DNA of 64,000 nucleotides from Deltaproteobacteria bacterium (GTDB lineage: Bacteria > Myxococcota_A > UBA9160 > UBA4427). The stretch's first letter is position 1, and each line of letters opens with the position of its first letter. The stretch is taken from contig PBFW01000071.1 in assembly GCA_002719955.1 (NCBI GenBank), forward strand, positions 124,001 to 188,000. The letters are read 5' to 3'. Positions 45,916 to 51,380 of the stretch are shown one piece after another. The notes beneath the pieces are model-generated. The model saw nothing but the letters and a program-made list of their open reading frames with translations, had not been told where the DNA came from and made no database searches. A program made the position numbers and the translations under genes.

Positions 45916-47334
45916 ATGCAGAAGAAGATCATCGAATTCACGAACCTGCTTCGGAAGAGTGGCATCCGGGTCTCCGTCGCCGAGGGCATCGACGCGTTCA
46001 ATGCGCTCGATGAGCTCTCCCTCGACGACCGCGAAGTGTTCCAGGACGCGTTGCGTTCGGCGATGGTCAAACGCGGCGACGAGATCGCGACCTACGACGA
46101 ACTCTTTGACCTCTTCTGGTCTGGCTTCTATGACAATCTGAAGGGCGCCTTCGGCGAGATGGAGGGCGATCTCGGAAATATGGGCATCGATCTCGAGCAG
46201 CTGCTCGCTCAGCTCGCCGAGATGATGCAGAACATGGATGGGGATCTCGATCTCGGTGAGCTCGCCCAGGCGCTACTCACCCAGGATCTCTCCCAGCTCG
46301 AGAACATGATCCGCGCGGCCGCAGAGGAAGCGGGTACCGGGCGCATCGAAAATATGCTCCAGGTCGGCTTCTTCAGTCGCCGCACCACCGAGCAGCTCGG
46401 GCTAGAGGGGGCGCAGCAGGATCTCGAGGCGCTTGCAGATCGTCTGCGCGCGATGGGGATGGGCGAAGAAGGCATCCAGCAGATGCAGGAGCTGATCCGC
46501 AAGTTGATGGAGACGGTCCGGCGCACCGTTCGGAACTTTACCGAGCGCGAGCTCCAACAGCAGAACCACAACTATATGGAGAAGTTCCGTCGCGAGATGC
46601 TGACGGAGAAGAGCTTCTATCACCTGACCGAGGACGAGATCCAGCGCATGCGTGAGGTCGTGACGCGCCTCGCCCAGCGCATCAAGAATATCCTTTCCAT
46701 TCGGAAGAAGCGGCTCAAGAAGGGCAAGCTCGACCTGCACCAGACGCTCCGCCGCAATATGGCTCGCGGCGGGATTCCCTTCGAGGTCATCTACAAGACC
46801 CGCCGCAAGGATCGGCCGAAGCTCATCATCATGTGCGATGTCTCCTCTTCGGTCGCAAACGTGTCACGCTTCATGCTGCAGTTCATGTACAGCCTCCAGG
46901 AGGCCTTTACGAAGATCCGTTGCTACGTGTTCGTGGCAGAGCTCGGGGAAGTGACGGATGTCTTCAACGACAAGGAAGTGAATAGTGCTGTCGAAAAAGC
47001 GCTCGACGGTGGAGATGTCATCAACGTCTATACCCGCAGCAATTTCGGCTACGCGTTCCACGAATTCTGGAAGAATCACCTCGCGGCCGTCGACAACAAG
47101 ACGACGGTGATCATCCTGGGCGACGCGCGGAACAACTACAACGATGCGATGGCTTGGTGTATCCGGGATATCCAGAACAAGGCGAAGACCCTTGTCTGGC
47201 TGAACCCCGAGAGCCCGAGCGCCTGGGGCTTCGGTGATTCCGTGATGGATCGCTATATGCCCTATTGCGATATCGTCGAAGAGTGTCGGAACCTGCGGCA
47301 GCTCTCGAAGGTCGTCGACCAGATCATCCTCTAG
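45916..47334 (+). CDS. VWA domain protein, CoxE-like partner of MoxR
   Basis: This is a 472-residue protein. Residues 1-260 are helical and rich in Glu, Gln and Arg, with likely coiled coil around 170-240. Residues 290-460 are a CoxE-type von Willebrand A domain with the metal-site motif CDVSSSVAN (D-x-S-x-S) near 305 and a late ILGDARNNYN. With the MoxR ATPase it forms the classic pair thought to remodel or metallate a target complex. The target cannot be named from the neighbours, since carbon monoxide dehydrogenase genes are not in the window. Confidence 0.88.
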   Translation: MQKKIIEFTNLLRKSGIRVSVAEGIDAFNALDELSLDDREVFQDALRSAMVKRGDEIATYDELFDLFWSGFYDNLKGAFGEMEGDLGNMGIDLEQLLAQLAEMMQNMDGDLDLGELAQALLTQDLSQLENMIRAAAEEAGTGRIENMLQVGFFSRRTTEQLGLEGAQQDLEALADRLRAMGMGEEGIQQMQELIRKLMETVRRTVRNFTERELQQQNHNYMEKFRREMLTEKSFYHLTEDEIQRMREVVTRLAQRIKNILSIRKKRLKKGKLDLHQTLRRNMARGGIPFEVIYKTRRKDRPKLIIMCDVSSSVANVSRFMLQFMYSLQEAFTKIRCYVFVAELGEVTDVFNDKEVNSAVEKALDGGDVINVYTRSNFGYAFHEFWKNHLAAVDNKTTVIILGDARNNYNDAMAWCIRDIQNKAKTLVWLNPESPSAWGFGDSVMDRYMPYCDIVEECRNLRQLSKVVDQIIL

Positions 47335-47575: not shown

Positions 47576-47613
47576 AAAAAAAACGCCCGATCCGCATGCG
47601 CAGACCGGGCGTT
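47576..47613 (-). terminator. Intrinsic terminator of a minus-strand small RNA
   Basis: Read on the minus strand, AACGCCCG (47613-47606) pairs with CGGGCGTT (47589-47582). The stem continues through a G-T pair and TCTGC/GCGGA to a GCAT tetraloop, giving about 14 pairs. It runs directly into eight T residues (47583-47576). This is a strong rho-independent terminator that works only leftward, and no protein gene reads into it from the right. Confidence 0.85.
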
Positions 47614-47713
47614 CGTCAGGGGGAGAGGCGGTGGACTCATTCAATGGGGGGTGAGAGGTTGGACATTTCAGAAGAAATGGCCAATCCACCGCCACTCCAA
47701 AACCCGTTGACTT
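47576..47713 (-). ncRNA. Probable small structured RNA (about 138 nt), undescribed
   Basis: A promoter at 47747-47720 and the terminator at 47613-47576 delimit a minus-strand transcript of about 138 nt. Its 5-prime part GGAGTGGCGGTGGA (47698-47685) pairs with TCCACCGCCTCTCC (47635-47622), 13 of 14 positions. Stacked inside is a second hairpin: TTGG and CATTTC pair with GAAATG and CCAA around a TTCT loop (47684-47659). The remaining 23 bases inside the outer stem stay unpaired and contain a C-rich run, CCTCTCACCCCCC, complementary to G-rich ribosome binding sites. No ORF of sense fits inside. I do not recognise the family; 6S RNA does not fit this shape. Confidence 0.7.
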
Positions 47714-47719
47714 GTGATC

Positions 47720-47747
47720 ATTATCGCGAGCCTAGAAGGCTTGTCAA
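47720..47747 (-). promoter_or_regulatory. Near-consensus sigma70 promoter of the small RNA
   Basis: On the minus strand TTGACA (47747-47742) is followed by a 16-base spacer and GATAAT (47725-47720), five of six -10 matches. The region further upstream (47748-47840) is unusually AT-rich for this genome and could act as an UP element. Start of transcription is expected near 47713. Confidence 0.75.
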
Positions 47748-48000
47748 TCGTGTTTTGAGTCAGCGTTATATTCATCCTGAAAAATGTTCAAAATCAGACC
47801 TTTATTGTGATGTTTCAAGAATTCGTCTGAGAAAATGGGGAGGTTTTTCCGATCCCCTCGGACCCGCCTCGTCGATCGACTCGTGAGCGCCTCTCGGGTA
47901 CGTTTCGCGCCGCTCGAAGCCGGCCCTCCGTGCGCCCGGGGGCCCGCTCAGAGCCGGCCTTCCGCCTGGTTCGCTCAACCGCCTCGAATTGGGGAAATTC

Positions 48001-49509
48001 GTGCAAGACAAGCGTTTCTCCATCCGCACTTACGGCTGCCAGATGAATGTGCACGACTCCGAGAAGGTCGTGACGCTGCTGGAGGATGCGGGGCTCTCGG
48101 CGGCGGCGAGCGAGAGCGAGGCCGATCTGCTCGTGATCAATACCTGCTCGATCCGCGACAAGGCCGAGCACCAGCTCTATAGCGACCTCGGCAAGCTGCG
48201 CGAATGGAAGGCCGAGAAACCCGGCCGGATCGTCGGCGTGGGGGGCTGTGTCGCTCAGCAGGTCGGGGATCGGCTGCTCAGCCGCTTCGGGCACCTCGAC
48301 TTCGTATTCGGCACGCATCATCTGCGGCGCGTGCCGGCGATGTTGGACGGGGCGCTTGCCGGGCGGCGGGCCGCCTGGGTGGGGGAGGACGAGAGCCAGG
48401 AGCGCTTCGATCTTCCGGCCCGGCGGCCGGCGCTTGCGACCGGACCCCGCCGGAGGGCCTTCGTCACCGTAATGGAGGGCTGCGACATGTTCTGCAGCTT
48501 CTGCATCGTGCCCTCCACCCGGGGTCGCGAGATCAGCCGGGCGGCCACTGAGATCGACACCGAGGTCCGGCAGCTCGCGGACCAGGGAATCCTGGAGATC
48601 ATGCTCCTCGGCCAGACCGTGAATGCGTACGGCCGCCACGACGTGCGCCGGGGCAGGGCGGCGGCCGCCGGGACGATGCCCTTCGCAGAGTTGCTGGGGC
48701 AGCTCGATGCGATCCCCGGAATCGAGAGGATCCGCTACACGAGCCCCCATCCGCTCTTCTACGACGCGGCCCTGATCCGCGCGCATGGCGAACTCGAGCA
48801 TCTGTGTCCCAATGTCCATCTGCCGGTCCAGAGCGGGTCCAACCGGATCCTCGAGCAGATGAGGCGTCGCTACACGCGTGAACGCTATTTCGAGATCCTG
48901 GGTGCGCTGCGCGCCGCGCGGCCGGATGTGGCGATCACCTCGGATCTCATCGTGGGTTTCCCAGGCGAGACGGAGGGCGATTTCGAGCAGACCCTCGACC
49001 TCGTCCGGGTGGCGGGCCTCGTCGACAGCTTCAGTTTCAAATATTCGCCACGCCCCGGAACGGGCGCGGCCGGGATGGGCGCCGAGGTCCCCGCCGAAGT
49101 CGCTCAGGACCGGCTCGAGCGGCTCCAGGCACAGCAGAGGGACCAGACCCTGGCGTACCATCAATCACGGGTGGGACAGGAGGCCCTCGTGCTCATCGAA
49201 GGGCCGAGCCGCCGAGGGGGGCACCAGGTGACCGGGCGCGATCTCCATCACCGCGTCGTCAATCTCGATCTGTGCTCCAGTCTCGAGCCGCCGGGGGCAG
49301 CGGAGCCCGGCACCCTGCTGCCCGCCCGAGTCGTTGGGGCGACACCCCACAGCCTGCTCGCCGCGCCCCTCGACCCCGCCCTGCTGCCTGGGGCCGAAGA
49401 TCCAGATTTCCCCCGATCTCGGCTGAAGTCGTCGAAGCGACGAGCCGATGAGACGGAGAGTGTCGACTGCGCCGGGGGTTTGGCTGAGGACGTATTGCGC
49501 GTCCTCTAG
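48001..49509 (+). CDS. miaB: tRNA-2-methylthio-N6-isopentenyladenosine synthase MiaB
   Basis: This 502-residue radical-SAM methylthiotransferase modifies ms2i6A37 in tRNA. The N-terminal MTTase domain has three Cys that bind the auxiliary cluster (RTYGCQMN at C13, NTCSIRDKA, GGCVAQQ). The radical SAM cluster is CDMFCSFC with C161, C165 and C168. The C-terminal TRAM domain lies at about 385-450 (VGQEALVLIEGPSRRGG), followed by a longer-than-usual tail. The GTG at 48001 has GGGGA six bases upstream; a TTG four codons earlier is also possible. The YGCQMN form marks MiaB rather than MtaB or RimO. Confidence 0.93.
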   Translation: MQDKRFSIRTYGCQMNVHDSEKVVTLLEDAGLSAAASESEADLLVINTCSIRDKAEHQLYSDLGKLREWKAEKPGRIVGVGGCVAQQVGDRLLSRFGHLDFVFGTHHLRRVPAMLDGALAGRRAAWVGEDESQERFDLPARRPALATGPRRRAFVTVMEGCDMFCSFCIVPSTRGREISRAATEIDTEVRQLADQGILEIMLLGQTVNAYGRHDVRRGRAAAAGTMPFAELLGQLDAIPGIERIRYTSPHPLFYDAALIRAHGELEHLCPNVHLPVQSGSNRILEQMRRRYTRERYFEILGALRAARPDVAITSDLIVGFPGETEGDFEQTLDLVRVAGLVDSFSFKYSPRPGTGAAGMGAEVPAEVAQDRLERLQAQQRDQTLAYHQSRVGQEALVLIEGPSRRGGHQVTGRDLHHRVVNLDLCSSLEPPGAAEPGTLLPARVVGATPHSLLAAPLDPALLPGAEDPDFPRSRLKSSKRRADETESVDCAGGLAEDVLRVL

Positions 49510-49550: not shown

Positions 49551-51380
49551 ATGAGCAAGGCACGTATTCTCGCAGTCGACGATCAGCGCTATTTCCGCGA
49601 GCTGATCGAGGGATTGCTCGACGACGAGGGCTACGACGTCCAGACGGTCTCTTCCGCCGATGAGGCGCTGCATATCCTCGAGCGTGAAGACTTCGACATC
49701 GTGATCACCGATCTCGTGATGCCGGGAATGGAGGGTGTCGAACTCGTGCGCCGGATCCGCGAACGCCGGCCGGATCAGCAGGTCGTCATGGTGACGGGCG
49801 TCATCGATGTAAAGACGGCAGTCGACGCCATGAAGCAGGGCGCGGCCGATTATATCCTGAAGCCCTTCGACCGGGTGGAGCTCGTCGAATCGATCGAAAA
49901 GATCCTCCAGCAGCGTCGTCTGAGCGACGAGCACGCCCGCCTGGTGGAGGAGAATCTCGAATACATGGGTGTGCCCTCGCTCTTCGAGCGGGCCCGGGAA
50001 CTCTTCTCCAGCCTTTCCGTCGGGGCGCTCGCCGAACGTCTCCTCGAGGGCCTCTGCTTCGAAACCCGAGCGCAGTCGGGGGTGGTCTGGATCGCGGAGG
50101 ACCTGGGTCGCGAAAATCTCGAACTGGCCGGGGCTCGCGGCCTCGTGTGGGTCGAACAAGAAGCCGAATCGATTCGACTCGCCGAGGCGGTGGCGGCCTG
50201 GTGTCCGGGCCTCCAGCAATCGCGTTCGGTCCTGGCCGCGCTCCCGGCGGATCTCGAAGGCAATGAAGCGCTTTATCTGCCGATCCGGGCCGCGGGCAGG
50301 ACGGTCGGGATTGCGCGCCTCTCCGGTCGGATCGACAGCGAAGACTTTGACGAGGCGGACCGCGCGCGGGCCGAGAAATTCTGCGAGTTCGGCGGTGTCG
50401 CGATGCACAACGCGATGCGCTTTCGAGCGCTCGAGCGCCGTTCGCTGCGCGATCCCGAGACGCGCACCTATTCGCGCTCCTATTTCGATGACGCGGTTCG
50501 CAACGAGGTGCACAAGGCCAATCGCTTCGGGCACCGTTTCTCGATCGCGCGGGTGGAGATCGACGACTGGACCGGACCGGATGGCGGGGGCGTCCCGGCC
50601 GGGATCGACCACGAGGTCGTCGAAGCGGCGCGGCGGATCGAGGGTGCTTTGCGCGCGACGGATCTCCTGGCGGCGGGGGAGGACGGTGCCTTCCTGCTTC
50701 TGCTTCCCCTGACCGATGCGTTGGGGGCCGGCGTGCTCACCCAGCGAATGCGGATGGCGCTTGCGGCGGGCTGGGAAGGTCGTGAGGCGCCGACGGTGCG
50801 CATCTCGTCGACGACGTTTCCCGTCGACGGAAGCCAGCTCGAATCGCTCGAGCAGGTGCTCGAGGCGCGCGTCGATGCCTCGCGCTCGAGTCTGCTGGCC
50901 CAACGACCCGAATTCGCACGGTTCCAGGCGCTCGACCCCCTGCTCGACTGCATGCTCGAATTCGGCTCGTCCGAACCCGTCGAGGTAGAGGGGCAGATCA
51001 TGCGCTTCGTTCTCGAGGATATCGTTCGCCGCCCGGCGGAGCGGGGCGTGCTCTTCCTGTCGCCGGGGGTGCGCTGGCTCCCGGACGTTCTCGAAGCGCT
51101 CGACGAGATTCGGAGTCCGGTCTGCGGCGCCGAGATCATCCTGCTCGCCGAGGGCGAGGTGCGCGAAACGAACCCGCAGGTCACCTGGGTCACCAAGTCA
51201 GCGCTCGATTCCCGGCGACCCTTTCTCGTCTATTTCGGGGATGGCCCCGCCTACGCAATGGTCGGTCAGCTCACATTGGCCGCCGCCCGCACCGCGGTCT
51301 TCCAGACCTCGGATCGCGCCCTCATCGAATTTCTGGCCTTCGAGCTCGGGCGCGAGCTCGGGATCGTCCTGTCGGTCTAG
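49551..51380 (+). CDS. Response regulator with GAF-like and degenerate GGDEF domains
   Basis: This is a 609-residue signalling protein. Residues 1-120 are a complete receiver: acidic pair D10/D11, phosphoacceptor D54 in VITDLVMPGMEG, MVTG, and the Lys in YILKPF. Residues 150-290 look like a GAF sensor. Residues 300-435 align with a diguanylate cyclase fold (RDPETRTYSRSYFDDAV), but the active motif is AGEDGAF where GGDEF should be, so it cannot be expected to make c-di-GMP. A C-terminal domain of about 150 residues is not recognised. It starts 41 bases after miaB and heads a set of three signalling genes. The histidine kinase partner is elsewhere. Confidence 0.85.
   Translation: MSKARILAVDDQRYFRELIEGLLDDEGYDVQTVSSADEALHILEREDFDIVITDLVMPGMEGVELVRRIRERRPDQQVVMVTGVIDVKTAVDAMKQGAADYILKPFDRVELVESIEKILQQRRLSDEHARLVEENLEYMGVPSLFERARELFSSLSVGALAERLLEGLCFETRAQSGVVWIAEDLGRENLELAGARGLVWVEQEAESIRLAEAVAAWCPGLQQSRSVLAALPADLEGNEALYLPIRAAGRTVGIARLSGRIDSEDFDEADRARAEKFCEFGGVAMHNAMRFRALERRSLRDPETRTYSRSYFDDAVRNEVHKANRFGHRFSIARVEIDDWTGPDGGGVPAGIDHEVVEAARRIEGALRATDLLAAGEDGAFLLLLPLTDALGAGVLTQRMRMALAAGWEGREAPTVRISSTTFPVDGSQLESLEQVLEARVDASRSSLLAQRPEFARFQALDPLLDCMLEFGSSEPVEVEGQIMRFVLEDIVRRPAERGVLFLSPGVRWLPDVLEALDEIRSPVCGAEIILLAEGEVRETNPQVTWVTKSALDSRRPFLVYFGDGPAYAMVGQLTLAAARTAVFQTSDRALIEFLAFELGRELGIVLSV

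Follow-up and report, generated by a model that had tools for sequence, protein, structure and literature searches.

The window, by which we mean the whole stretch of 64,000 nucleotides analysed here, carries a compact unit on the minus strand that runs from promoter to terminator (47747-47576) between a VWA gene (45916-47334) and miaB (47989-49509). Both of these genes lie on the plus strand, as the first-pass annotation had remarked when it proposed an undescribed small RNA gene at this place. A response regulator gene with a weak GGDEF match lies directly 3' of miaB (49551-51380, plus strand). The promoter had been described as TTGACA-16-GATAAT, and the -35 hexamer TTGACA (47742..47747, minus strand, read directly in the sequence) and the -10 hexamer GATAAT (47720..47725, minus strand; CATAAT or CATACT in most relatives) are indeed separated by a spacer of 16, with 11 of 12 hexamer matches, while shuffles of the region yield 0.3 such sites. 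Transcription is predicted to start near 47713, giving a transcript of about 138 nt (47576..47713, minus strand), which ends in an intrinsic terminator with a 15-bp stem and eight U (47576..47614, minus strand). The terminator scan assigns 15 pairs to its hairpin (47614-47581), one more than previously counted, with eight T at 47583-47576. The G+C content is 55.8% in the RNA and 38.7% in the 137 bases upstream, compared with 63.6% in the window, in line with the AT-richness noted earlier.

The predicted transcript is strongly structured, and of the 91 genomes of the class 77 carry a homolog. For the 138-nt strand (47713-47576) the folding energy is -70.2 kcal/mol, whereas shuffles give -40.7 +/- 3.8 kcal/mol (z -7.7), and none of 200 shuffles folded as well. 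The claimed outer stem with a nested hairpin was recovered. The outer stem, P0/P1, joins the 5' arm GGAGUGGCGGUGGA (47685..47698) to the 3' arm UCCACCGCCUCUCC (47622..47635) on the minus strand; in DNA letters, GGAGTGGCGGTGGA (47698-47685) stands against TCCACCGCCTCTCC (47635-47622) with 13 of 14 positions paired and one T.T mismatch. Within it, fold and alignment place the P2 hairpin UUGG.CAUUUC(UUCU)GAAAUG.CCAA (47659..47684, minus strand), whose nested arms are CATTTC (47679-47674) and GAAATG (47669-47664); members generally share the inner 6 bp and one outer G-C pair, and the remainder of UUGG/CCAA is family-specific. The C-rich stretch AACCUCUCACCCCCCA, minimally CCUCUCACCCCCCA (47645..47660, minus strand), is conserved in the class and in phage versions of the RNA and is unpaired, except that in some members the first bases pair; CCTCTCACCCCCC is read in the window sequence at 47658-47646 (minus strand).

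When 98 genomes were searched at the nucleotide level, the core turned up in nearly every close relative, at E-values down to 5e-72, and no genome carries more than one copy. We built a covariance model, R1, from 75 loci and ran it on 379 genomes of the phylum, of which 76 were matched, once each and all within the window's class, which we infer to be GTDB class UBA9160. One additional carrier, G007, has the core split across two contig ends and was detected by the nucleotide search. The R1 search of about 290 genomes from other classes of the phylum gave no match, and seven of the other-class genomes, together with the unmatched class genomes, were rescored more thoroughly with the model. The model left 14 class genomes unmatched, and in 13 of them miaB is cut by a contig end or was not found. 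The remaining one, G037 (family f9), in which the region upstream of miaB is assembled, has a degenerate version at the corresponding site and in the same direction (L125 3187-3273, plus strand); its stem GGAGCGACGGA/TCCGTCGCTTC is re-paired, and only a C run is left of the motif. Wherever the miaB upstream region was assembled, the RNA was there, degenerate in this one family. It always diverges from miaB, with the motif 193-589 bp from the miaB match at all loci except one truncated locus, and in every case where the fetched stretch includes the VWA gene the RNA converges with it, so that the order VWA, RNA, miaB is retained wherever these genes could be seen. Assemblies often break within miaB near the RNA locus, as in G008, G038, G059, G067 and G071.

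The strongest conservation lies in the C-rich strand itself. The 15-mer AACCTCTCACCCCCC is identical in 77 of 77 collected class loci, the unpaired stretch AACCUCUCACCCCCC does not vary among these 77 sequences, and conservation per position falls from 1.0 at the 15-mer to about 0.3 in the flanks; the motif is more invariant than the RNA's own stems. The stems vary in a manner that preserves pairing. In P1 and P2 together, 99.1% of alignment cells are paired and six pairs have changed on both sides, a level reached by 0 of 500 shuffles and far above that of slid versions of the alignment; in the eight P1 pairs alone, 99.7% of cells are paired and three pairs have changed on both sides. Such changes include a P1 U-A to C-G replacement in seven distinct sequences and a G-C to A-U replacement in two. 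The compensatory changes suggested as a check on the outer stem were therefore found, and in both stems. G-U variants are clearly commoner than A-C variants on the promoter strand, as would be expected if the RNA has the sequence of that strand. Of 75 homologous loci, 59 have TTGAC-N(15-18)-NATA(A/C/T)T upstream, at 8 to 114 bases ahead of the core; shuffles would give 0.05 such cases, and the reverse strand has 0. A terminator hairpin of varying sequence lies downstream in 75 of 77. The first-pass annotation had named, as grounds for abandoning the gene, relatives that keep miaB without conserving these signals; in the relatives the stems and the terminator are kept, and the promoter is recognisable in most.

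A search of the whole window against Rfam 15 matched only a tRNA. In the RNA region, with E up to 10, every match was sub-threshold and no family reached its gathering score, the best scoring 17.9 bits against that family's cut-off of 50; several of these matches fall on the terminator. A brief literature search, which left many journals uncovered, returned nothing on a C-rich RNA beside miaB. The small RNA gene that had been proposed is strongly supported; the RNA family is real, apparently undescribed, and in these searches confined to one class and four phage contigs.

These contigs emerged when 2.9 million viral contigs were scanned: the query AACCTCTCACCCCCCA gave four hits and looser 14-mer queries gave about 110 viral contigs. 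Each viral site was scored for the best stem enclosing the motif, with 432 random positions as control. Four sites exceeded the rest with scores of 39.5, 35.5, 35 and 28.5 (control 99th percentile 28.3, maximum 34.5), and the remaining 104 look like chance. The phage versions lie on IMGVR_UViG_3300038492_000643 (L277, 13721-13616, minus strand), IMGVR_UViG_3300049901_000275 (L280, 3131-3212, plus strand), IMGVR_UViG_3300022723_000177 (L279, 670-750, plus strand) and IMGVR_UViG_3300009370_000029 (L296, 1600-1515, minus strand), with R1 bit scores in this order of 34.7, 59.5, 27.3 and 34.6. Each of the four has a more stable fold than its shuffles, with z between -3.8 and -6.3. Their outer stems, GCCAGAGGCGGAACA/TGTTCCGTCTCTGGC, AGAGTGGCGGTGGA/TCTGCCGCCACTCT, GGCCCCGCAGGG/CCCTGCGGGGCC and GGAGAGGCGG/CCGCCTCTCC in the same order, are partly or wholly altered yet paired; the stems of L280 and L296 still resemble that of the host, and in L277 and L279 most or all of the stem sequence is new. 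Between the inner hairpin and the still-pairing outer stem, (A)CCTCTCACCCCCCA is identical across the four, and the stretch shared by host and phage versions is (A)CCUCUCACCCCCCA, immediately 3' of P2. Retention of the motif on altered stems suggests that the displayed motif is the likely functional part, and the invariance of the 15-mer in hosts, taken together with these phage versions, implies that something in cells must recognise the stretch.

PHROGs identifies phage genes for packaging or replication on each of the four contigs. L280 and L296 are related and T4-like, the former with a clamp loader, processivity factor, Hsp20, dUTPase and endolysin and the latter with a clamp loader, DNA polymerase, DnaB-like helicase and UvsX, and both have the RNA at the same place, ahead of a phrog_1574 gene; L277 and L279 carry siphophage-type terminase and portal genes. 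The nearest T4-like relatives of L280 and L296 (L389 and L391) have no motif at the corresponding place, a search of T4-like relatives through the neighbouring gene found no carriers beyond these two, and the annotated phages of INPHARED and the plasmid collections gave no match to the RNA. The hosts of the four phages are probably bacteria of this class. By sequence, the closest host version to L280 is in family f1 and to L277 in f4/f7, which suggests separate uptake. On an RNA-carrying T4-like contig, L471 (6518-10337, minus strand), a CobS/MoxR-type ATPase gene (phrog_249) stands beside a phrog_459 peptidase gene; its likeness to the MoxR/VWA pair beside the host RNA is possibly a coincidence.

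Among known RNAs, Y RNAs, which act with Ro/Rsr, have a stem closed by the two ends, a pyrimidine-rich internal loop and an adjoining VWA-protein gene. The C-rich RNA has a similarly end-closed stem, a pyrimidine-rich internal loop and a VWA gene alongside, but it has no Rfam match and its neighbour is of the CoxE type, not Ro; identity with Y RNA was rejected, since the neighbouring protein P0001 contains only PF05762 VWA_CoxE and no TROVE domain. RoxS/RsaE carry a C-rich, anti-Shine-Dalgarno-like unpaired stretch through which they can bind G-rich ribosome sites. The likeness is this unpaired C-rich stretch, whereas the present RNA has no Rfam sequence or structure match and holds one fixed 15-mer inside a long stem. 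The motif UCACCCCCC resembles the anti-Shine-Dalgarno sequence UCACCUCCU at the 3' end of 16S rRNA. Closest in design are Yfr1/Yfr10 of cyanobacteria, which are clade-wide and present one conserved pyrimidine-rich single-stranded motif on different scaffolds, and the targets of Yfr1 were measured (PMC6778093). Here too a clade-wide motif is left single-stranded by flanking stems, and host and phage versions share it on different scaffolds. The motif sequence, host group and stem arrangement differ, the C-rich strand being enclosed by an outer stem after an inner hairpin, and phage-borne versions are reported here for the C-rich RNA. Membership of the Yfr1 family was rejected on the missing Rfam match and the different motif; by analogy, the C-rich RNA would nevertheless work most like Yfr1/Yfr10.

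The first-pass annotation had suggested a regulator that pairs with G-rich ribosome sites. This remains plausible, but complementarity at start regions is near background and the sole striking site is not kept elsewhere. The start-region tests drew on 904 start regions, from 0.8 Mb of G000 and 0.4 Mb of G030. Motif-complementary 8-mers occurred 15 times in the 904 start windows, against 9.6 expected from a Markov model and 4.3 from scaled coding windows; duplex energies at these start regions were no better than for shuffled motifs. Extended mRNA complementarity over 12 nt (GGGGGTGRGRGG) occurred in 13 genomes at about the control frequency. The best site, GGGGGGTGAGAGG, is a 13-nt perfect complement of the motif just upstream of the start of a Pal/OmpA-family lipoprotein gene in G030 (contig C1, L227, 18681-18649, minus strand), and it is absent from 30 other loci read, that of G000 included. 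Over 26 pal loci, the motif has a mean duplex energy only slightly better than that of its shuffles (0.03), and the effect weakens once the G030 site that prompted the comparison is left out. The lipoprotein was rejected as a conserved target, the 13-nt site being confined to G030. Hfq was found in 0 of 21 class genomes, with the controls from E. coli, B. subtilis and Caulobacter detected, so that the host Hfq expected of an Hfq-dependent small RNA did not appear.

The principal competing explanation, which we consider possible though on the unlikely side, is that the C-rich strand is shown to a protein, either a dedicated RNA-binding protein or a machine such as RNA polymerase or Rho, which it would inhibit, recruit or titrate, with the phage versions as decoys or agonists. 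The complete invariance of the strand, stricter than in most base-pairing seeds, would suit such a partner, as would the differing stems of the phage versions and the failure to see enrichment of base-pairing targets. Against it, the search brought up no candidate protein, Hfq included in the 21 genomes, and the sequence specificity of Rho is too low for such invariance. A DNA site, such as a phage attachment or recombinase site, might explain why the motif occurs on phage contigs, in one case beside a DNA invertase-like gene, but we consider it very improbable: the phage stems differ yet keep pairing, unlike an identity-based site, among the pairing changes in hosts G-U prevails over A-C when the promoter strand is read, and two carriers are T4-like with no integrase seen in the scanned parts.

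We attach equally little probability to a cis-acting leader, attenuator or 3'-end element of a neighbouring gene; the fixed site beside miaB and the VWA gene would be expected of one, but the neighbours are on the opposite strand, the RNA has its own promoter and terminator, and the phage versions sit in other contexts. That the RNA is the 6S RNA of the class is extremely improbable. It shares with 6S RNA a one-copy hairpin with an internal single-stranded part and a housekeeping-like pattern (one copy, strong promoter, class-wide), and the Rfam model recognises 6S in few relatives, but the C-rich RNA is shorter, with a core of about 85 nt and a one-sided open loop, and the RF00013 covariance search matched nothing in the window or in G000. 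The identity was rejected since G041 carries both RNAs, its 6S match being above the curated cut-off. Among G000-G041, RF00013 finds 6S in 2 of 31 genomes (G041 and G037, the latter with a clear 6S RNA); the 6S of the others has either diverged beyond the model or been lost. A 41-codon open reading frame overlaps the RNA, but a short coding gene fits poorly with gap lengths in the P2 loop and 3' spacer that are not multiples of three, and conservation and covariation lie far above what a chance arrangement would give; either is scarcely credible.

On balance, we favour, by a modest margin, reading the unit as the free-standing gene of a new small RNA family, whose displayed C-rich strand would act in trans. 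The RNA would be transcribed from its own sigma70-type promoter and end at its own terminator, and between its outer stem and inner hairpin a fixed C-rich sequence, (AA)CCUCUCACCCCCCA, is kept single-stranded. The alignments establish a conserved, structured, independently bounded unit, in which conservation and covariation show this strand to be displayed. The strand would be the working part, and the RNA is most likely an Hfq-independent trans-acting small RNA that works through the C-rich motif and is Yfr1-like in design. Its likeliest mode of action would be pairing, free of Hfq, with G-rich mRNA stretches such as extended Shine-Dalgarno regions, for and against which we see the case as evenly balanced. 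Phages appear to have acquired versions from at least two host families, keeping the strand and changing the stems, which suggests that their versions would either imitate the RNA or soak up its partner.

We tentatively go further and hypothesize, with rather less confidence than in the explanation just given, that this is a class-wide housekeeping small RNA whose invariant 15-mer acts on a central cellular partner, and that several unrelated phages captured it independently and rebuilt its stems, making it a point of contact between host and phage. The phage versions, by keeping only the displayed strand and the fold, mark the functional part without an experiment, and the copying of the RNA by several phages suggests that the partner is important. 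To our knowledge, the class has no cultured model; in these bacteria, in which no Hfq was found, the new RNA family would offer a partner that can be reached through a 15-nt strand.
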